The position numbers and the translations under genes are program-made. Shown one piece after another: positions 5,875 through 26,789 of a stretch of DNA of 32,471 bases; within the stretch, counting starts at the first letter, position 1; every line of letters begins with the position of its first letter. The DNA is taken from assembly GCA_028703445.1 (NCBI GenBank), contig JAQVMW010000013.1, forward strand, positions 1 to 32,471, written 5' to 3'. A model generated the notes under the pieces. The model saw only the letters and a program-made list of their open reading frames with translations, was not told where the DNA came from and did no database searches. Source of the DNA: Candidatus Peribacteraceae bacterium (GTDB taxonomy: Bacteria > Patescibacteriota > Gracilibacteria > Peribacterales > Peribacteraceae).

Positions 5875-5964
5875 CATGGGAAGGAAACCAGCGGTTTCCT
5901 TCCCATGTGCCCATCCTTCCCTTAAGCGGTGTGCCTCCAGGCGGGCGAAGCCCGCCTTCGGCAC
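5875..5964 (+). repeat. Two-hairpin dispersed element, copy B
   Basis: Hairpin 1 is a perfect 15-bp palindrome (5875-5889/5893-5907; CATGGGAAGGAAACC with loop AGC). Hairpin 2 has outer stem GTGCC (5931-5935)/GGCAC (5960-5964) and inner stem GGCGGGC (5940-5946)/GCCCGCC (5950-5956) with loop GAA. It lies between divergent pyrH and tRNA-Arg, eight bases upstream of the pyrH -10 box. Confidence 0.85.
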
Positions 5965-14656: not shown

Positions 14657-14719
14657 GTAGGGATTGGGGATTAGTGTAGTAGGGAACCTTGAAGAGTTTT
14701 TTCGTTGATCCCTAATCCC
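14657..14719. repeat. TAGGG/CCCTA inverted repeat, copy 1
   Basis: Gap between convergent TPM and cysteine-rich genes. GGGATTAG (14667-14674)/CTAATCCC (14712-14719) flank an interior with TAGGGAAC...TGAAGA and a T6 run (14697-14702). The right arm includes the stop codon of the 706-aa gene. It resembles 28120-28210. Confidence 0.6.
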
Positions 14720-16832
14720 TCCGTCTTCGTCTCGCCCAGGCGAAGCCCGCGGCTGCCCCCATAGCAACGATGCTCAGGGCGGCGGGGCCGGTGTCATTCA
14801 GGGACGAAGTCGTGAAGACCGACTGCTGCTGCATGTACTCGTAGGGAGAAACGGGAGTAGGCGTCAGTGGAGAACCCGGAGTAGTCGTCAGTGAGGAACC
14901 GGCTGCGGGGAAGGGGATCATCTGTGCAGTCGGACCGAAGACGAAGGAGTAAGAGGAGGGGAAATTCACGTCGGGGAGCAGTGCATTGACGGAATGCGTC
15001 GAGGACTGCTGGCGCGCCGGCGGGAGGAGCGGATCAACGGAGGATCGGCTGGAGGCGGCACCGCGCAGAGCCAGAGAGCCGCTCTGGATGATGAGTGCGG
15101 AGACCGGTGATCCCGTATCTTTCTGGCAGAGTCTGCTGCATCCGTCGCCGCTGATCAGGTTTCCATCGTCACACGCTTCGCCCATTTCTATGAAACCGTC
15201 GCCGCAGAATTCGCTGAAGCAATCTTTCGTGCAGCCGTCGCCTTCCTGGTGGTTCCGGTCATCGCACTGTTCGTGCGTATCCCTGATGCCATCACCGCAG
15301 ATCGGGAAACGGCAATCGAAGCGGCAGTGGTCGGGGATGTTGGTATTCCCATCGCCGGCATCACACTCCTCTCCGGGATCGATGATCTGGTTTCCGCAGA
15401 CGTTCGTCAGTGAGAGAACGAGTTCCCGCACGCATTGACCGGTGCAGCCGTCCCCGTTTGCGGTATTGCCGTCATCACACTCTTCTCCGGCATCCTGAAT
15501 ACGATCACCGCAGCGCGGAAGAACGCAATTCTGCCGGCAGCTGTCGGGAATATTCGCGTTAGTGGAACCGGAGTCGCACTCCTCTCCGGACTCCATGATT
15601 CCATTGCCGCAACGCACCGTTGGGAGGGAGGAGAGGGGGATTGTTTTCTCCAATTGGCAGTAGAAGGAACAGCCGTCGCCGTCCGTGCGATTCCCGTCGT
15701 CGCACTCCTCGTTCGTATCTTTCACATTGTCCCCGCAACGGGGGGACTGACAATTGTTCCTGCAGCTGTTGGCTTCGGTATCTGAATTGTCCTTTCCCGC
15801 ATCGCAGGTTTCCCCGCTGAGGGAATCGATGATGCCGTCTCCGCATAAGGGAAGGAGACAATCGGTTCGGCAGTGGTTGGGCTGATTCCCGTTGAACTTT
15901 CCATCATCGCACTCCTCGCCCTTCTGGAGGTCGATCACGTTGTCCCCGCAGTCGGGGAGCGTACAGTCCACGCGGCAGGTATCCGGCACTTCGTCGGAAT
16001 TGAGCGGGCCGTCGTCGCACTTCTCGGTGGCCTCAATCACTCCGTTGCCGCAGATATGATCCTGGGAGCAGACGTCGCAAGGAATCTGTTTCCCGCAGAG
16101 AGAAGTCCAGCCGTACTTCTTGTGGACGCTGCCGTCATAAGGAGCTTCGAAAATGGGTTTCGCATCTTTGGCAGACAGGCTTTCGAGATGTTTGAGAAGA
16201 GCCACGAACTGTTCGTATTCTTCCTGGTTGGCCTCTCGCTGGTAGATGAACCCCTCATCAAGACAGCAGTACACGAGCTTCTGGCCGGTTTCGGGATCCG
16301 GCTTGACCTGCGCGCAGAGTCCGGCCTCGAGGCCGATCACAGCCCCGTTTGGCGTTGTGCCCCCCGTGGTGGAGGAGGACTGTTGCGCAACAGAAGAAAA
16401 TTGGGAGCCGGCGGAGGAGGCGGAGGCAACCTGGCTTGTTGCAGACGAGCTCTGCGGCACAGAGGAAGATGGAAGAGAGCTGCTCTGGTTTGTCGAGGAA
16501 GCTCCGCAGGTACAGACGGAATAACCTGCCGTAGGGGCGGCGATGCATTCGTAGCCTCCCCCGGCCGAAAGGGGAATGGCACAGAGGGGATGATCCGCCC
16601 AGATGCTACAGGCCTGACAACCGCCATTCGTACACGGAGAGCAGTTCACAGAGACTGAGGCGACGGAGGAGAAAGAGCTCGAAGCCACAACGGCGGATGA
16701 GCTGGAACTCGTGAGAACCTGCGCCTGCCATCGGGAAGATTCACTCGAAGGTTCCCAGGAAAGGACTGCGACGACTGCTCCCAGCAGGATTGTCGGAAGA
16801 AGAATGCGCCGGAGAAAGGATGAGGTCGTCAT
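14712..16832 (-). CDS. Cysteine-rich DUF4215-repeat surface protein, 706 aa
   Basis: Signal-anchor N-terminus (RRILLPTILLGAVVAVLSW), a Ser-rich linker, a short Cys-rich stretch, then a domain with YCCLDEGFIYQRE and CGKQIPCDVCSQ. This resembles the N-terminal domain of the 2395-aa neighbour. Nine DUF4215 cysteine repeats (CGNG...GEECDDGN type) follow at about residues 260-590. The tail ends with a Ser/Pro-rich stretch and the anchor NDTGPAALSIVAMGAAAGF + WARRRRRD. DUF4215 is found in secreted and surface proteins; the exact role is unknown. ATG 16832 lies 35 bp after the stop of the giant gene on the same strand, so the two are probably one operon. No Shine-Dalgarno. Confidence 0.9.
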   Translation of the reverse strand: MTTSSFLRRILLPTILLGAVVAVLSWEPSSESSRWQAQVLTSSSSSAVVASSSFSSVASVSVNCSPCTNGGCQACSIWADHPLCAIPLSAGGGYECIAAPTAGYSVCTCGASSTNQSSSLPSSSVPQSSSATSQVASASSAGSQFSSVAQQSSSTTGGTTPNGAVIGLEAGLCAQVKPDPETGQKLVYCCLDEGFIYQREANQEEYEQFVALLKHLESLSAKDAKPIFEAPYDGSVHKKYGWTSLCGKQIPCDVCSQDHICGNGVIEATEKCDDGPLNSDEVPDTCRVDCTLPDCGDNVIDLQKGEECDDGKFNGNQPNHCRTDCLLPLCGDGIIDSLSGETCDAGKDNSDTEANSCRNNCQSPRCGDNVKDTNEECDDGNRTDGDGCSFYCQLEKTIPLSSLPTVRCGNGIMESGEECDSGSTNANIPDSCRQNCVLPRCGDRIQDAGEECDDGNTANGDGCTGQCVRELVLSLTNVCGNQIIDPGEECDAGDGNTNIPDHCRFDCRFPICGDGIRDTHEQCDDRNHQEGDGCTKDCFSEFCGDGFIEMGEACDDGNLISGDGCSRLCQKDTGSPVSALIIQSGSLALRGAASSRSSVDPLLPPARQQSSTHSVNALLPDVNFPSSYSFVFGPTAQMIPFPAAGSSLTTTPGSPLTPTPVSPYEYMQQQSVFTTSSLNDTGPAALSIVAMGAAAGFAWARRRRRD

Positions 16833-16867: not shown

Positions 16868-19800
16868 TTATCTTCGCTTTCGGCGCATCCAGGAGAATCC
16901 TGCCGCGGCGCCGGCAGCCATCACGGCGATTGCGGCCGGGCCGGTTTTTCCCGGAATTGTTTGGGAGCGCGACGTGGCGAGGGTGAAGGCGCGAAGAGTG
17001 GCGAACTGTGGGGTTTTCTTTCCTCCGGTTCCCTGTTGCGCACTGCTGCTAACGGCAATGAGTGAGCCTGTGGGGATTTCCAGATGGCAATCCGATGAGC
17101 AACCATCACTGCTCACTCTGTTGCCGTCGTCGCAGGCCTCCTGACAGCCTCTGATGCCGTCGCCGCAGATGTTGTTGGACGGCTCGCAGGCGAACTGTTC
17201 CAAAGGAGCCCCTCCTTCACGCAGGCAGAACCGATCACAGCCGTCGCCGCTCTTGGCGTTGCCGTCGTCGCACTGTTCACCGCTGTCCATGACCCTGTCA
17301 CCGCAGCGTGGCAGAGAGCAATCCAGACGGCAGAGGGCATCCGGCTGGTTAGAATTGAGTCGACTGCCGGCGTCACACTGTTCTCCGGGATCGAGAAGGC
17401 CGTTACCGCAGAAACTCAGGGTGTATTTGCAGTTCATCCCACAGCCGTATGGCACGGAGATGTCGGGATCACGTGCAAGAGAGGGCTCGCACTGCTCGCC
17501 GAGGGCATGCTGAATGACGCCGTCGCCACAGGAACCCTTCTCGAGGAAACAGGTGGCGGAACAGCCGTCGAAGTCGCGGCGATTACCGTCGTCACACTCC
17601 TCTCCAGAATTGAGGAAGCTGTTTCCGCAGTCCTGCGTTCCGGTGATGACAGTGGATTCGAGCCGGCAGCTTGCATCGCAGTTATCTCCTGCCTGCCGAT
17701 TGCCGTCGTCACATTGCTCGTAGATTTCCTTCACGCCGTTTCCGCAGACCGGCTGCCCGTGGGTTGCCTCTTTGCGGCAGGAGGCATTGCAGCCGTCGCC
17801 GATCATCTGGTTCCCGTCGTCGCACTCCTCGCCGGCCTCAAGAAGGCCGTTGCCGCAGACGAATGTCCCCGGAATATACGTGCTGGAGCTGGAAGCCCAG
17901 GAACGCTCGAGGTTGCAGGATCCGTTGCACCCGTCGCCATCCGTGGTGTTGCGATCGTCACACTCTTCGGGAGATTCGATGATGCCGTTTCCGCAAGAGG
18001 CATAGGTCTGTTCTCGCGTGCAGGAGGGGGAACAGCCGTCCAATGCCTGCCGGTTCCCGTCGTCGCACTCTTCGGGGGATTCCACTCGGCCATTGCCGCA
18101 GAGGTAGGATGTTTCGATGGTGCAGTAACGGTCGCACCCGTCGTCATCCCACAGATTTCCGTCATCACACTCTTCGCCGGAATTGAGGACGCCATTGCCG
18201 CAGAAGGGCGGGGGGGCAGAGCTGTACGAAGCATACGCAGAATACGAAGAAGACTTGGAGCTCGAAGATGATCGGGAGGAACTGGTCGTCCACTTGCACT
18301 GCAGAGAGCAGGTGGGATCTGAAATGGAATCGAAGACGCAGGCATACTCCTCATAGCAATCCACGTCTCCGCCGCAGAGCACGGAGGATTTGGCGGAGCA
18401 GATTCCGCTGGTGCACGGGCCGCGGAAAACAGAGCAGGTAAAGTTGGCGGCACAGCGAATGCCGGCCTTTTCACCGGACCCGCAGATGCTGCCATTATCA
18501 CAATTCTCTCCGATTTCGATGAGTCCGTTGCCGCAAGTGCGGGAGTGGCTGGCGGAAGAGGAGCGGGTGCTGCTATAGCAGGCGGCGCAGTCGCGGCACC
18601 GGCCATCGGATTGCATTACTCCCCTCTGACAGAAGTTTTGCCCCGTCTCGCTGTTGTAGACGACGCTCTCGTACTTGCAGCACTCCGGAACGCTGCTGCT
18701 GCGGCTGCTGCTGTAGCAGGCGGCGCAGTCGCGGCACCGGCCGTCCGGCTGCAGCACTCCATTCGAACAGAACACCAGACCCGTCTCTCCATTCACGATG
18801 GAATTGGCGTACTTGCAGCAATCTTGCATGCTGCTGCTTGCGTAGCAGGCGTTGCAGTCGCGGCAGCGGCCATCTGTCTGCATGAGGCCTTTCTGGCAAT
18901 AGAATTGCCCCGTCTCGCTGTTGTAGACGGAGTTTTCATACTTGCAGCACTCCGGAACGCTGCTGCTGCCGAAACAGGCATTGCAGTCGCGGCAGCGGCC
19001 ATCGGATTGCAGATCCCCCTTCGTACAGAGCCACTCTGCCGTCAGAGCGTTGTAGACGGCGCTCTCGTACTTGCAGCACTCCGGAACGCTACTACTGCGG
19101 CTGCTGCTCCTGCTGCTACTGTAGCAGGCATTGCAGTCGCGGCAGCGGCCATCTGTCTGCATGAGGCCTTTCTGGCAATAGAATTGCCCCGTCTCGCTGT
19201 TGTAGACGGCGCTCTCGTACTTGCAGCACTCCGGAACGCTACTACTGCGGCTGCTGCTCCTGCTGCTACTGTAGCAGGCATTGCAGTCGCGGCACCTGTC
19301 ATCCGACTGCAGCTCCCCGTTTCTGCAGTACACTCCGCCCGTCTCGGCGTTGTAGATGGGGGTCGCGTATTTGCAGCACTCCGGCATGCTGCTGCTGGAT
19401 TGAGCAGAACGGCTGGAACTCTTGCTGCTTACGTAACAGGCGTTGCAGTTGCGGCACCGTCCGTCCGGCTGCAGCTCCCCGTCTCTGCAGAACAGTTCGC
19501 CGGTCTCTCCATTGATGACGGGGTAGGTATACTTGCAGCAGTCTTGCAGGCTGCTGCTTCTGCTGCTCGCATAGCAGGCGGCGCAGTCGCGGCACCGGCC
19601 ATCCGGCTGCAGCACTCCATTCGAACAGAACACCAGACCCGTCTCTCCATTCACGATGGGATTGGCGTACTTGCAGCAATCTTGCATGCTGCTCCTGCTG
19701 CTCGCATAGCAGGCGTTGCAGTCGCGACACCGGCCATCGGATTGCAGATCGCCCTTCGTACAGGACCACACGCCCGTCTCGGCGTTGTAGATGGGACTTG

Positions 19801-22800
19801 CATACTTGCAGCACTCCGGAACGCTGCTGCTGCCGGAAGATACGCTCTGCCCGCCACTGCTCCCGCCTCCACTCGTTGCACTACCATTGCTCCTGCTGCT
19901 CGCATAGCAGGCGTTGCAGTCGCGGCACCGGCCATCGGATTGCAGATCGCCCTTCGTACAGGACCACACGCCCGTCTCGGCGTTGTAGATGGGACTTGCA
20001 TACTTGCAGCACTCCGGAATGCTGCTGCCGCCGAAGCAGGCGTTGCAATCGCGGCAGCGGCCATCGGATTGCAGATCCCCCTTCGTACAGAGCCACTCTG
20101 CCGTCAGAGCGTTGTAGGTGGGGCTGACATACGTGCAGCACTCTTTGATGCTGCTCCTGCTGCTTGCGTAACAGGCCTTGCAGTCGCGGCACCTGCCATC
20201 CGGCTGCAGTTCTCCGACCGCGCAGAAGATATCTCCCGTCTCTCCATTCACGATGGAATTGGCGTACTTGCAGCAATCCTGCAGACTGCCACCGGAAGAT
20301 CCGCCGCTCCCTGCGCTGGCGGATGACCGCGAGCTCGTCCACTTGCATTGGGAGGCACAGGTAGGATCGGCCAGCGTGTTGTAGACGCACTGAAACAGAT
20401 CCACGCAGTCCCAGTCGCCGAAGCAGGGGAGTCCGTCATCGCACCAGCCGTTGGCGCACTGACCCTGCGCTTCAAAGCAATCTGCATTCGAGAAGCACTC
20501 CTCAAACTGCAGCGGGCCGGATTTGCACATTCCTCCGTTGTCGCAGTCCTCTCCCAGGTCGATGCGCCCATTGCCGCACTGCGCGGACCTCGACGAAGAG
20601 GAACTGCTGCTGTAACAGGCGGCGCAGTCGCGGCACCGGCCATCGGATTGCAGATTGCCCTTCGTACAGGACGACACGCCCGTCTCGGCGTTGTAGGTGG
20701 GGTTTACGTACGAGCAGCACTCTTTGATGCTGCTGCCGCTCTTACCGGAGCTCTTGCTCCCTCCGCTCTTTCGTGAACCGCCGCTGCTACTATCGCCTCC
20801 ACTCGTTGCACTACCGCCGCTACTATCGCCTCCACTCGTTGCACTACCGCCGCTCCTGCTGCTTGCGTAACAGGCGGCGCAGTCGCGGCAGCGCCCATCG
20901 GATTGTAGCTCGCCCTTGGTACAGGACCACTCTTCCGTCTCGGCGTTATAGGTGGGACTTGCATACTTGCAGCACTCCGGAATGCTGCTGTTGCTGTTGC
21001 TGCTGCTTATGCTTGCGTAACAGGCGGCGCAGTCGCGGCAGACTGTCGGCTTGCCTTGTTCCGAGAACATATCTCCCTGTTCACAGAACGATTTTTTCGT
21101 CTCGGCATTGTAGGTGGGATCAGAGTACGTGCAGCACTCTTTTCTGCTGCTCTTACCGGAGCTCTTGCTCCCTCCGCTCTTTCCTGCATCGCCGCTGCTA
21201 CTCCCTCCAGACATTGGGCCAAGGGGACCGGAATTACCATTGCTCGAGCTGCTGCTGCTGGCGGAAGATTCGCTGCTCCCTCCTGAACTTTTCCCTGTAC
21301 TGCCATCGGAGCTGCCACTCCCTCCTGGATCTTCTGGACCCCCACTGGATTTTTTGCTGCTCCCGCAGGAGCTGCAGTCGCGGCAGCTGCCAGCTGCGGA
21401 CATCCCCTTCCCTTCCATGTGCTCTCCCTTCTCGCAGAACCACCTTTGCGTCTCGGCGTTGTAGGTGGGATCAGAGTACGTGCAGCACTCTTTTCTGCTG
21501 CTACTACTGGAACTCTTACTCTCATTCTCACTCTTACTGCTGCCCACGGAACTGCTTCTGGGAGGAAGCGGAGGGTTGGAGGCTTGAAAGGAGTGGGCTG
21601 ATGACCTCCTGCTGCCACCGGAACCGACACTGCCCTTTCCGCTTCCATCATCTCCTCCATCATCTCCTCCATCATCTCCTCCATCATCTCCTCCATCATC
21701 TCCTCCGTCGTCACCCGGATTCACTCCTCCGCCTCCTCCTCCGCCTTTCCCGCCACGGCTTCCCTGGCTTGTGGAACTGTTATTTATAATAATGATGATG
21801 GTATTATCTCCCCGTTCGCGAGGCTTGATGTCGTAGCGCTTACAGGTCGGATTTCCGCTGCCTTTTTGCGCGTGGCAGAACAGCGGGCCTTCGCCCGGAT
21901 GCTTCACCGCATCATCGTCACCTTGTGCGCAGGGCAGTGTGTTGTGCCAGACTCGCTTCGTGGCGCATGCGCCAGTGCAGGCGGTATCCTTAGCACCATC
22001 AACCTTCTCGTTCTCGCAGAATGTGCCCCCAGATTCAGATGCGCAGTAGCCACTTTTACAATCACCTCCGCTATTGCAGGCTTTCTTAGCATCTTCTGCG
22101 TACTTTACGCACACATTGCCGCCGCATTCTGCTCCTTCTGGTTGAGGTTTCATGAGGGTAGCTTTTTGCTCTTCCCATTTTTCCGGTGTCAGGCACGGAT
22201 CTTTCGCCTCATCATCCGCAGCTAGCTCTTGTACAAGCAAGGAAGCACGGAGGTTCCCATTCTGATCCACGGTTCCGGAAGGAGGCTCCTCCCCGTCGAA
22301 GCGGGCGAGCAGGTTGCCGTTCTCATCCAAAATCTCCGTGACGATGGAATTCCCGTTCTCATCAAACAGGAACTCCTCGCCCTCCTTGCCGGGAACGTAG
22401 AGCGCGCCGTCGGTACGCAAGTTCATTACGGTGTAGTTCCGTCCCGGAAAAGGGGGGCAGGTGCCGATCTGCGTCTTCGTTCCGCTGGGATTGGAGTTGT
22501 CGGCCTGGCCGACGCGCGGATCGGCGGATGCCAGCACAAACGGTTCGCAGAGGGGCTTTCCGGCGGGATTGCGATGGACGGCAAAACAACTCCCGATGCC
22601 CACCTTCTCAAGCTCGGAACCCGCTGTTTTGAGAGCGGTATCGCACTTGGAGATTTTGCAGTCCACGCAGTTGCTTTTGCGCATCTCTTCTTCCCATTCC
22701 CACTTAAACGGCAGCTCATGAACATCATCCGCGATGTTCCTCGGTAACGTTTCGCGGGCGTTGGCTACGCCTTTGGGAATATTCACGGTGGTGCCAACGC

Positions 22801-24055
22801 CGCAGTTCTCCCCCGTTGTGCACTTTGTAGGATCCTCCCCTCCGGGATCCTGATCACGGGAGGTATTAGTGGGAGCGCCCAGATCGCACGCTTCCCCGTC
22901 CTCCTTTATCACGTCTCCATCTCCGCAGCTTTCCGCGCACATCGTGGGCTGGCCGTCCGTTCCAGCGGGTCCGCCGGTTTCCTTGCAGGTCTTCTGCACG
23001 TCAACCATTTTCATTCCGCCCGCGACCAGGGCGAGGTACCATTTGCCCTTTTTGTTATCGCTCTTCGCCGGGTCGTTGCCGGTGGACTCGCACGTGTCCG
23101 GAGGGACGAAGGCTCCGCACTTGTAATCGTTATTGGTCGTCGGGGTCGCGCAGCAGTAGCCGACGGGAGTCACCGGGTCGCCGATGACGTAGTAGGCATT
23201 TTTGGATGACGAAGAGTCGCTGCTTGAACTCTCTTCCGAGCTGGAGCTTTCTTCGGAAGACGATTCTTCACTGGAACTCTCTTCGGAACTGGAGCTTTCT
23301 TCGGAGGATGACCCCTCGCTGGAGCTCTCTTCGGAAGAGGATTCCCCGCTCGAGCCGGAGTCTTCGGAAGAACTCTGGACAGCGCTCGACCCGCCATCAC
23401 CTGCGCTGCTGGATTGTTCTTCTGAGCTGGAGCTTCCTTCTTCACTGGAACTGCCGCCATCGCTGGAACTTCCCCCGCCGGCACTGGAACTTCCGCCATC
23501 GGAAGGGGGCTCGCTTGCGTTGCCTCCGGAAGAGTTCCCACCCGAGGATCCTCCGCCCGAAGAGCCGTCGCCTTCAGAGGAGTTATCTTCGGAGGACTTG
23601 CTCGCGCCGCCGCCGGTGACGAGATCGATGTACCCGTTGCATTCGCTACACGAGGTTTCGGGACAATTACTCGCCAGCCAGTCTTCGAGGACATCGTCGT
23701 CCCCCAAGGATGCCAATTCGTAGCCCTGCAGAAAGTCTATCAATCCCTGATAAGCGTAGTTCGCCACCTCGGGATCCGTTGATTTCATCCGTTCGAGGAA
23801 ACCCGCTTCCATTTCGGCACAGCAGTACACCGGATCTTTAGCAGGGTCGCCTCCATTCGCCGTTATTACGCTGGGATCACACTTGCAAAGGAATTCATGC
23901 ACCCCCGGATCGCAATCGCCCACAGACACCAGTGCCGCATAGAGATCGCTGCGGCCGTCCTTCGCTTGCTTACGGGAAACATTCTGCTGGAGGACGAGAA
24001 CCAGCACGATGCCGAGTGCGATCCCCACGGTGATGCGACTGAGCAGTTTTCGCAT
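16868..24055 (-). CDS. Giant cysteine-rich repeat surface protein, 2395 aa
   Basis: Layout: signal-anchor (residues 1-27); a Cys-rich N-terminal domain shared with the 706-aa protein; Ser/Glu linker (about 155-285); a mixed region with DENGN-type repeats and a CGDGD...EACDLG unit; Gly/Asp tract; then 16 copies of an unrecognised unit, ECC-x(17)-C-x(10)-RCRDCNACY (about 854-1827), separated by Ser-rich spacers. One CGNG...CKW module lies between units 4 and 5 and another after unit 16. Ten DUF4215 repeats follow (about 1952-2326), then tail [20 protein letters not shown] + MRRKRR. Each unit has six Cys. Start ATG 24055; ATG 24085 is also possible. No Shine-Dalgarno. The function is unknown; an extended disulfide-stabilised cell-surface fibre is inferred. 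Confidence 0.88.
17078..18202 (-). repeat. Ten DUF4215 repeats of the giant protein
   Basis: Coding tandem array of [20 protein letters not shown] units, 30-45 residues each. The seventh ([16 protein letters not shown]) and the tenth ([16 protein letters not shown]) deviate most. Confidence 0.85.
18575..21494 (-). repeat. Array of 16 six-cysteine units in the giant gene
   Basis: Each unit is about 38 residues plus a variable Ser-rich spacer, with two adjacent Cys, one middle Cys and a C-x-x-C-x-x-C end. Neighbouring units 7 and 8 (about 19700-20020) are nearly identical in DNA. Unit 13 looks like a hybrid of units 12 and 6. A nested module lies between units 4 and 5. Confidence 0.9.
21645..21704 (-). 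repeat. Five perfect 12-bp tandem units
   Basis: ccatcatctcct x5 on the plus strand, coding the Gly/Asp tetrapeptide repeat GDDG in the giant protein; a sixth degenerate unit follows. Length is a multiple of 3, so copy-number change keeps the frame. Confidence 0.9.
23200..23590 (-). repeat. Ser/Glu low-complexity tract of the giant protein
   Basis: Degenerate coding repeat of [11 protein letters not shown] type (about residues 155-285), including a Gly/Ser part. Likely a flexible extracellular linker. Confidence 0.75.
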
Positions 24056-24229
24056 AATTATTCGCAAGAGTAGCAGTGCTCTCATTCATGATGCACATGA
24101 CTTTCCTTGCATTGGAATCATTCGATTGCGTATTCATTCTCTTGTGTCCTCGTTCGATCAAAATAGTATTCGTGAATAGGAACATTCCCAGTCAAGTCGT
24201 GGAGGCTAGGCGGAATCATTTTCTTCTCG

Positions 24230-24242: not shown

Positions 24243-25034
24243 ATGATGGAATCACAGGATCGCACAAAGGTCTGGTTCGTCGTAGCGCTCTGCCTGCTCG
24301 TGCTCGTTGGCGGCTACTTCTTCACCGAGTGGCTGATCGGCGGTAGAGAGGTTTTTCGCGGCGCCGCCCCTGAGCAACCTGCCGTGCCCTTGATCGCGCC
24401 TGTGGCTCAACCGGATATCGAGGATTTTGAAGACGTGGCGCAGTACACCGGCGGCAAGCCTCTTCCCGTCGATCCCGGCTATGAGATCTTTCTCACCGAT
24501 GTTGAAACGGATGAACACATCAGGGGCGACCGCGCGACGAAGGTCACTGTCGTGCAGTACGCGGCTCTTTCGAGTCTGTACACGCAACTCGTGTACCCGC
24601 AGATGGCACAGTTCTTCGAGAAGAACAAAGACCGCGTGCACTGGGTGTTCCGTCACTATCCGGGCTCCGAAAACGAGAACGACTACCGCGCCGCGCAGGC
24701 GACGGAGTGCATCACCGAACAGCTTGGGAACGACGGCTTCTGGGCCTATATGGATCTGCTCATGCCAAACAGAGGAAGCCCTCTGCCGATAGATCTCCTG
24801 CTCTCTTCGGCAACGAAAATCGGTGCGGATTCCGCGCGATTGCGCGCGTGCGTTGAAGGGGAGGAACTGTACGATTATGTGTTACAAGACAAGCAGAATG
24901 CCCTGAGCGACGCAAAGATCTACGTCACCCCGACATTCGTTTTCCTGAACAATGAAACGCGATCGATGCGCATCGTCGAAGGCCTGAACACGCTCGAGTA
25001 CATGCAGGCGGTCCTGGACGACGTGGCGAAGTAG
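24243..25034 (+). CDS. DsbA-fold thioredoxin-like protein lacking CxxC
   Basis: 263 aa. N-terminal transmembrane anchor (about 11-31), linker, then a DsbA-type thioredoxin domain (about 98-263). Typical landmarks are present: VTVVQYAALSSLYTQLV at the active-site position, an inserted helical region, EQLGNDGFWAYMDLLM, and the cis-Pro loop VTPTFVFLNN (Pro230). In DsbA proteins the first stretch reads FSDFQCPYC; here it is YAALSSLYT (106-114), so both catalytic Cys are replaced by Ser111 and Thr114. Only C17 (in the anchor), C156 and C203 remain. It cannot carry out normal dithiol exchange. It may be a chaperone or redox-dead homologue (inference). It is divergent from the giant cysteine-rich gene. 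Confidence 0.88.
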   Translation: MMESQDRTKVWFVVALCLLVLVGGYFFTEWLIGGREVFRGAAPEQPAVPLIAPVAQPDIEDFEDVAQYTGGKPLPVDPGYEIFLTDVETDEHIRGDRATKVTVVQYAALSSLYTQLVYPQMAQFFEKNKDRVHWVFRHYPGSENENDYRAAQATECITEQLGNDGFWAYMDLLMPNRGSPLPIDLLLSSATKIGADSARLRACVEGEELYDYVLQDKQNALSDAKIYVTPTFVFLNNETRSMRIVEGLNTLEYMQAVLDDVAK

Positions 25035-25046
25035 TACTGTTAAAAA

Positions 25047-25303
25047 CCCCGGAGAATGGATTTCGCAGAGTCATCACTTCTGCGTCAGGTTCACATCGCG
25101 TATTCGATTGAACCGACCATTTTCCGGGGGCTGGTTGGAGGAGAGAAGAGGAGGTGAGGGAGCGTCACGACTGCTTCCCGTCAGACTCCGCGAGTGTGCG
25201 GAGCGCACCGATGGGAGAGTGAACCCCCTCCCGGACCCTTTGCGTCACCAAAGGCTCTCCTCCGTATATGTACGAGGGCAGACGAAAGATAGGTGTCTGC
25301 CTC
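25047..25303 (-). ncRNA. Candidate structured RNA in a 348-bp gene-free region
   Basis: No convincing gene lies in 25035-25382. Domain 1: a 13-bp stem 25047-25059/25117-25129 (one G-U) encloses CGCAGA/TCTGCG (25064-25069/25079-25084) and GGTTCA..ATCG/CGAT..TGAACC (25088-25114). Domain 2: GGAGGAGA/TCTCCTCC (25137-25144/25256-25263) encloses four hairpins at 25158-25179, 25186-25203 (CTCCGC/GCGGAG), 25213-25232 and 25237-25254 (CCTTTG/CAAAGG). A last hairpin is GGCAGAC/GTCTGCC (25277-25301). Strand is uncertain: on the minus strand the first domain stem is followed by five T residues (25046-25042), like a terminator. No match to RNase P, tmRNA, SRP or 6S motifs. Confidence 0.55.
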
Positions 25304-25370
25304 GGCACCATCATCCGATGCCCCTCGCGGGCAGTCAATGAAACAGGCTGCTTTTTGCGCTCGTCCTTGC

Positions 25371-25382: not shown

Positions 25383-26699
25383 ATGCGATTCAGCGCCCTC
25401 CGTTCACAGCACCGTATTCTCGGCGGTGCCGCGGTACTCGCGCTCACGCAATTCGCCGCCTCGTTTGCCGGTCTCATCCGCGACAACCTGCTCAACCGCA
25501 CCTTCCCCGGGCTCTCGGTGGTGGACGTGTACGTGGCGGCTTTCCGTCCCAGTGATCTCCTCTTTCAGGTGACGATCATGGCGGGGTTTTCGGTCGCCTT
25601 GGTGCCGCTCCTCGCCCGGTACGAAGCAAACGGGGATCGCAGATCCATGTCTTCGCTCTTGAACGGGGTCGTGACGGTGGCGGCGCTGATCTTCGGTCTG
25701 CTTGCGCTTGTGCTCGCGATCATCTTTCCGCTCGTCGCCCATTTCTTCACGCAGTTTCAGGGTGAGACGCTCGTCCTCTACATCCGCTTCGCGCGCATCG
25801 CGCTCCTCACGAATTTTCTCTTCGTCTTCGGCAATGCGTTCGGCCAGTACCTGAATACGATTCAGCGTTTCTGGGTCTACGGACTGACGCCGGTGCTCTT
25901 CACGCTCGGCACGATTGCCGGAACACTCTGGCTCACGCCGTTCATCGGACCGTACGGCCCGATCGCCGGCACCCTGCTCGGCGCGCTGGTCTACACGTCG
26001 GTACGTTTCATTGCGATTGTGCGGGCGGGGTATCGATTCGCGCTCTCGTGGTGGCATCCCGACTTGACCGAGATGGGGCTCCTCATGCTCCCGCGCATGC
26101 TCGCGCTCGGAGCGTTGCAACTGGAACTCCTTGTCTTTGATCGTATTGCCTCGGGGATGACGGTGGGTTCCATTGCGGTGAATGCCTATGCGCGTAACTT
26201 CCAGGCCGTGGTGGTGGGCGTGACCGGCATGGCATTGGCGCTCTCACTCTTCTCGCCGTTGAGCCAGGCTGCGGCGCGCGCGGAGTGGGGCCGCTATCGC
26301 CAGTATCTCAAGAGGGGAGTTGCGTGGATGCTTCTGCTCACCGTGCCCGGTGCCATTGCGCTCGTGTTCGCAACACCGTTCGCCGCGTGGCTCATCCATC
26401 TGCAGGCGACCTTCCTGCCGGTCTTCTTCACCTGTCTTGCGCTCTACGCGCTGAGTATTCCCTTCGAGAGCCTGAACCATCTCTTCACGCGGGCGTTCTT
26501 CGCCACCAAACATACGACAATTCCTGCTATTCTCACCGTCTTCAACGGCGTGATTGCCATCGTGCTCTCGTGGACGCTTGCGCCGAGGCTCGGCGTCTTC
26601 AGTCTGGCGCTCGGCTACTGCATCGGGCACATTGTTGAGATGGCGGGGCTCCTCCTGCTCATCCCGCGCGAAGTGCAGAGCGTAAAAGGGGAATTTTAA
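25383..26699 (+). CDS. murJ: Lipid II flippase MurJ/MviN
   Basis: 438 aa from ATG 25383. Multidrug/oligosaccharidyl-lipid/polysaccharide (MOP) exporter fold, with about 12 transmembrane helices along its length and short polar loops (RPSDLLFQ, RYEANGDRRSM). Flips the lipid-linked peptidoglycan precursor. The length is shorter than the common 510, from a compact C-terminal end, but the MviN-type N-terminus (VLALTQFAASFAGLIRDNLL) and the middle SWWHPDL...LMLPRML...FDRIASGM region are recognisable. It implies a peptidoglycan wall. The frame is open upstream to 25293; ATG 25383 is chosen for its -10 box and N-terminus. A two-hairpin element follows two bases after the stop. Confidence 0.92.
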   Translation: MRFSALRSQHRILGGAAVLALTQFAASFAGLIRDNLLNRTFPGLSVVDVYVAAFRPSDLLFQVTIMAGFSVALVPLLARYEANGDRRSMSSLLNGVVTVAALIFGLLALVLAIIFPLVAHFFTQFQGETLVLYIRFARIALLTNFLFVFGNAFGQYLNTIQRFWVYGLTPVLFTLGTIAGTLWLTPFIGPYGPIAGTLLGALVYTSVRFIAIVRAGYRFALSWWHPDLTEMGLLMLPRMLALGALQLELLVFDRIASGMTVGSIAVNAYARNFQAVVVGVTGMALALSLFSPLSQAAARAEWGRYRQYLKRGVAWMLLLTVPGAIALVFATPFAAWLIHLQATFLPVFFTCLALYALSIPFESLNHLFTRAFFATKHTTIPAILTVFNGVIAIVLSWTLAPRLGVFSLALGYCIGHIVEMAGLLLLIPREVQSVKGEF

Positions 26700-26700
26700 T

Positions 26701-26789
26701 CATGGGAGAGAAACCTGCGGTTTCTCTCCCATGAACCCACCCTTCCCTTAAGCGGTTGCGCTCCAGACGGGCGAAGCCCGTCTTCGCGC
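26701..26789 (+). repeat. Two-hairpin dispersed element, copy D
   Basis: Hairpin 1: perfect 15-bp palindrome 26701-26715/26719-26733 (loop TGC). Hairpin 2: outer stem GCGC (26758-26761)/GCGC (26786-26789) replaces GTGCC/GGCAC; inner stem GACGGGC (26766-26772)/GCCCGTC (26776-26782) replaces GGCGGGC/GCCCGCC. These are compensating changes. Located after murJ. Confidence 0.88.

Follow-up and report, generated by a model that had tools for sequence, protein, structure and literature searches.

The gap of 348 bp that separates a dsbA-like gene from murJ in the window (the whole stretch of 32,471 nucleotides that we analysed, from an uncultured Peribacteraceae genome of the Patescibacteria) is empty of protein-coding genes and very probably houses an independent gene for a structured RNA. 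Taken as a whole, the observations are probably best explained by an independently transcribed, single-copy non-coding RNA of about 260 nt that serves as a free-standing, trans-acting regulator; for the trans-acting regulatory role by itself, the balance is only a little better than even. The sequence comparisons support a single transcription unit that is present in six genomes from one lineage, together with its proposed strand and fold. The RNA is a previously undescribed family of a known kind. Its parts and the flanking genes are as follows.

end at 25034, plus strand: dsbA-like gene (thioredoxin fold, PF13462)
ATG at 25383, plus strand: murJ (PF03023)
25042-25338, minus strand: whole RNA gene, from the -35 element through the T5 run, as delimited by sequence-level signals
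25333-25338, minus strand: -35 element TTGACT; TTGAC invariant in all six homologues
25310-25315, minus strand: -10 element GATGAT; spacer of 17 nt, exactly 17 in all six
25042-25303, minus strand: predicted transcript of about 260 nt, from promoter and terminator
25274-25303, minus strand: P0, the 5' hairpin (GAGGCAGAC / GTCTGCC-CTC); a hairpin in all six, with changed sequences
25255-25263, minus strand: P1, 5' strand, GGAGGAGAG, from comparative alignments
25137-25145, minus strand: P1, 3' strand, CTCTCCTCC; two pairs with two-sided changes
25237-25254, minus strand: P2 hairpin, CCTTTG-loop-CAAAGG; two-sided changes in four of six pairs
25222-25236 and 25146-25157, within 25146-25236, minus strand: J2/3 and J5/1, predicted to pair and so enclose P3, P4 and P5
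25206-25221, minus strand: P3 hairpin, from comparative alignments
25185-25204, minus strand: P4 hairpin; two-sided changes in six of seven pairs (hand alignment)
25158-25179, minus strand: P5, GGGA/TCCC, after the conserved CTGAC (25180-25184)
25042-25129, minus strand: P6 domain with T5, a branched intrinsic terminator; five P6 pairs with two-sided changes
25117-25129 with 25047-25059, minus strand: P6 outer stem, 13 positions
25088-25114, minus strand: P6a, enclosed by P6
25065-25083, minus strand: P6b, enclosed by P6
25042-25046, minus strand: T5 run, directly 3' of the last stem

Transcription signals and strand

A promoter-like site of the sigma-70 type (TTGACT-17-GATGAT) occupies 25338-25310 on the minus strand, from which RNA polymerase would start about 7 nt downstream of the -10 element. 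The same arrangement, TTGAC-N17 with a -10-like hexamer, recurs in all six homologues at a similar distance from P1 and is followed by P0; the chance rate of a loose version of this promoter is about 0.26% per sequence. At the other end, a T-run follows P6 in all six homologues, and the plus strand has no T-run past either outer stem. The T5 run that the earlier note had placed after the outer stem on the minus strand is real, and its proposal of a minus-strand RNA with its own terminator is supported by both the T-run and the -35/-10 pair with its 17-nt spacing, each conserved in six of six. Across the six homologues, G-U cells number 10 on the minus strand versus 1 on the plus strand, which favours transcription from the minus strand.

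The description of 25047-25303 as gene-free, and of the 348-bp gap as devoid of a convincing gene, was borne out as well. No reading frame is conserved across the homologues, the frames being broken by indels and stops. A 48-codon frame that starts within the -10 element in the window's own genome was considered as a small ORF and rejected, since changes in P2 length and stops break it between homologues. At the level of sequence, the locus combines its own promoter and its own terminator with the lack of a conserved frame, as would a free-standing non-coding RNA gene.

Fold of the RNA

The minus strand of 25047-25303 folds with an energy of -116.1 kcal/mol, compared with -86.3 +/- 5.0 kcal/mol for dinucleotide shuffles (z -5.97), and none of 200 shuffles reached this value; the plus strand gave a z of -4.42. 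The region is therefore as highly structured as had been noted from the single sequence, with some corrections to the details. The 13-bp outer stem stands as to its 13 positions, all of which pair on the plus strand, while on the minus strand there are 12 pairs and one A-C. The supposed 8-bp outer stem actually has nine pairs (25137-25145 with 25255-25263). The six inner hairpins are present and conserved, and the 5' hairpin at 25274-25303 stands besides them.

The overall architecture consists of P0; P1, which closes P2 and the J2/3-J5/1 helix with P3, P4 and P5 inside; P6, which closes P6a and P6b; and the T-run. P0 varies in sequence among the homologues (e.g. GGCAG/CTGCC, GACAG/CTGTC), the P6 domain has an extra hairpin in genera g7 and g13, and the most invariant bases are located in the terminator domain. 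The J2/3-J5/1 helix is moderately supported: constrained folds give 6.7-9.2 expected pairs in each of the six sequences, with per-sequence shuffle p values of 0.005-0.26. The pyrimidine-rich J5/1 had also been considered as an anti-Shine-Dalgarno-like seed, an idea that we gave up since every one of the six folds pairs it with J2/3.

The least biased test of the fold is a plain, unguided MAFFT alignment of three natural sequences, applied to a structure that was named after looking at the folds. In this alignment 95.8% of the cells are paired and 9 of 56 pairs show two-sided changes, versus 0-2 when the partners are slid. The six-sequence alignment gave 99.3% paired cells and two-sided changes in 15 of 45 pairs (0-2 when slid); its loops and insertions were trimmed and one N was added to bring the stems into register. 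As the structure guided how the six-sequence alignments were trimmed or laid out, part of their 99% pairing is built in. With untrimmed stems, a hand alignment of the six sequences paired 309 of 310 cells and contained compensatory changes in 22 of 52 pairs. Stem conservation among relatives, on which the earlier note had made its reading depend, holds, with compensatory changes in five other genomes.

Distribution among relatives

Searching 58 relatives at the DNA level yielded one good match and one short match. Homologues were found by inspecting murJ loci and then by a covariance model, R1, followed later by a broader model, R2; the E-values of these models are rough. The six carriers span three genera: the window's own genome (G000), G001 and G003 in genus g1, which thus supplies three of the six; G016 and G096 in g13; and G010 in g7. 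Over 353 genomes of the class, R2 returned the same six carriers and nothing in the other 347 (one genome per species). The RNA is single-copy in its own genome and in each of the other carriers. RNA-less murJ loci scanned without filters scored at most 14 bits, and searched viral contigs gave no match. At the level of the phylum, two weak matches, of 21.2 and 17.6 bits, had broken P1 or P3 pairs and were taken as chance, and a pattern match in a Roseburia contig fails to fit the model.

Two of five congeners (G002 and G004) and G020 have no copy, which indicates that the RNA is dispensable; in G004, a single-contig genome, it is absent both at the locus and genome-wide. The G002 sequence matches the window as far as the -35 element, and the end of dsbA follows almost immediately, so that the whole stretch from promoter to terminator is missing and the RNA behaves as one unit. 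The absence in the two congeners is likely, and most simply, a loss. The carriers do not form one clade in the MurJ tree, where at least four changes are needed; the tree is compatible with a single gain, in a clade of ten rows (support 100/99), and several later losses, and exchange of the RNA between lineages may be an alternative.

Known RNA families

Running the region against Rfam 15, as the earlier note had proposed, returned no family at gathering score and nothing meaningful at E up to 10, the best match scoring 10.9 bits, against a cut-off of 40, for an animal lncRNA. The lack of an RNase P, tmRNA, SRP or 6S identity was also confirmed. In the same genome RNase P (RF00010, 138.5 bits, C2:122413-122872) and tmRNA (RF00023, 89.9 bits, C11:95733-96146) score above cut-off at other loci, and the only 6S RNA candidate (RF00013) is a sub-threshold match at C12:62447-62597 (40.5 bits, cut-off 46.4, E 4.9e-7). 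No SRP RNA was matched in this genome by RF00169 or RF01854, and RF00169 found nothing convincing in 19 genomes, with one weak match of 16.7 bits only. The Ffh M domain (PF02978) was not found in seven genomes, with controls positive in 14 of 14, so that no SRP RNA is expected. As an observation in its own right, this genome and its relatives may be a group without SRP or with a very divergent one.

Like 6S RNA, the RNA described here is free-standing, structured and of roughly similar size. The structure of 6S RNA is a rod with a central bubble, whereas this RNA has two multi-branch domains and no Rfam match. A narrow search, limited to open-licence papers, found nothing on an RNA of this locus or on non-coding RNAs of Peribacteria. 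Other orphan structured RNA candidates that came out of comparative genomics (e.g. PMC2864571, PMC8632094, PMC11109978) are likewise intergenic, covarying and multi-stem, with their function undescribed; compared with these, the present RNA has no Rfam match, has its own promoter and terminator, and occurs in a few Peribacteraceae only.

Neighbouring genes and possible roles

In all six carriers, murJ adjoins the RNA in divergent orientation. On the other side, the neighbour in genus g1 (G000, G001, G003) is the convergent dsbA-like gene, and no co-directional gene lies directly 3' of the RNA; in G016, G096 and G010 the gene after the terminator is a co-directional purL. Because the RNA is single-copy, absent in two congeners and found nowhere else among the 353 genomes, it is not a housekeeping RNA, and in g1 it does not serve an adjacent gene as its leader. 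Action in trans is most likely because the RNA is single-copy, dispensable and lineage-restricted, folds into two structured domains and carries signals of its own. From its predicted start, transcription would run through the 5' hairpin, the P1-closed multi-branch domain and then the three-way-junction domain, where the P6 outer stem and T5 would double as the terminator. The conserved P6a/P6b junction, together with the CUGAC/P5 part, may be where the finished RNA holds its partner, whether a protein, a ligand or a second RNA.

An origin as the 5' leader of purL is possible but rather unlikely. The RNA would then be an attenuator or riboswitch whose P6 terminator embeds a sensing junction, and the copies in g1 would be leftovers after purL moved. 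This fits the position of purL in half of the carriers, the arrangement of murJ beside purL in several relatives without the RNA, and the concentration of invariant bases in the terminator domain. There is also a precedent in the HMP-PP (thiS-motif) riboswitch, a terminator-embedded aptamer (PMC6478431): the likeness lies in a conserved junction within a terminator hairpin, through which a ligand could in principle affect termination. Unlike that riboswitch, the RNA here has no sequence or Rfam match to it, carries a second large domain 5' of the terminator, and in g1 has no same-strand gene directly after it. A purely cis-acting element would be expected to have a co-directional downstream gene in all homologues, and purL fills this place in three of six. 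In g1, P6, P6a and the T-run are nevertheless kept with compensatory changes, which makes a purely cis role there unlikely. Moreover, a separate promoter for purL seems to lie past the terminator, judging by eye from GCTGCATAAT, which in G016 lies shortly 5' of the purL start and also occurs in G011 and G015, which lack the RNA.

We think it quite doubtful that the RNA is a free-standing sensor, in which the conserved junction within the terminator stem would bind a metabolite or protein and so set how much of the RNA is completed, while the P1 domain would carry out the action. If true, this would be a regulatory design with no gene attached to it, seen so far in one lineage of Patescibacteria only.

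It is very improbable that the plus strand acts as a divergent 5' leader or attenuator of murJ, even though murJ adjoins the RNA in every carrier and the plus strand folds well too. Read by eye, an extended -10 element (TGCTATTCT) lies about 7-12 nt 5' of the ATG in the window, with similar elements in many relatives; as the likely murJ promoter sits just before the ATG, murJ would be nearly leaderless and the RNA would not be its leader. The excess of minus-strand G-U cells and the lack of plus-strand T-runs also argue against a plus-strand product. Nor do we give much credence to a structured DNA element, such as a mobile repeat or a cruciform, in place of an RNA: patchy presence and the clean absence in G002 could mean insertion or excision, but each carrier genome has a single copy at a conserved locus, no target-site duplication was noticed, the promoter and T-run are conserved, and the G-U pairs favour an RNA from one strand. 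A divergent copy of a housekeeping RNA (SRP, 6S, RNase P or tmRNA), for which the missing SRP RNA might speak, can be dismissed as extremely improbable, given the RNase P, tmRNA and candidate 6S loci elsewhere, the missing Ffh M domain and the survival of the single-contig congener without the RNA.

Described regulators are few in the Patescibacteria, whose genomes are small. The RNA gene proposed here is lineage-specific, shows strong covariation and is repeatedly absent in close relatives, so that its presence can be compared with traits, and as a defined RNA it could be used to fish for its partner. Since it adds one orphan family to hundreds of others, we regard it as a solid, moderate find and no surprise.

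Other features of the window and related loci

Two related loci contain further gene-poor stretches. In G011, murJ and purL are over 1 kb apart with no obvious gene between them (L016, minus strand, 1520-150); this interval contains TTGACG-N17-TATAAT along with several stretches of hairpin plus T, which may be other RNA genes located at the same junction. In G007, a hairpin-rich, gene-poor stretch upstream of murJ (L013, minus strand, about 930-500) carries CTCTCTCCTCC and has no convincing match to R1 or R2.

Within the window, a palindromic element of 86 nt (CATGGGAGAGAAACC...GGTTTCTCTCCCATG plus a second hairpin) occurs in two copies that are 84% identical, at 5875-5960 and 26701-26786. One copy directly follows the murJ stop and the other overlaps the start of a pyrH-like ORF; the element is possibly an interspersed repeat. 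The minus strand also has a Ser- and Cys-rich ORF of 2405 aa (16868-24085) that likely encodes a giant surface protein; it has at least 14 degenerate repeats of about 130-160 nt and numerous CDDGN-type motifs. Similar shorter ORFs lie at 29-856 and 14712-16832.
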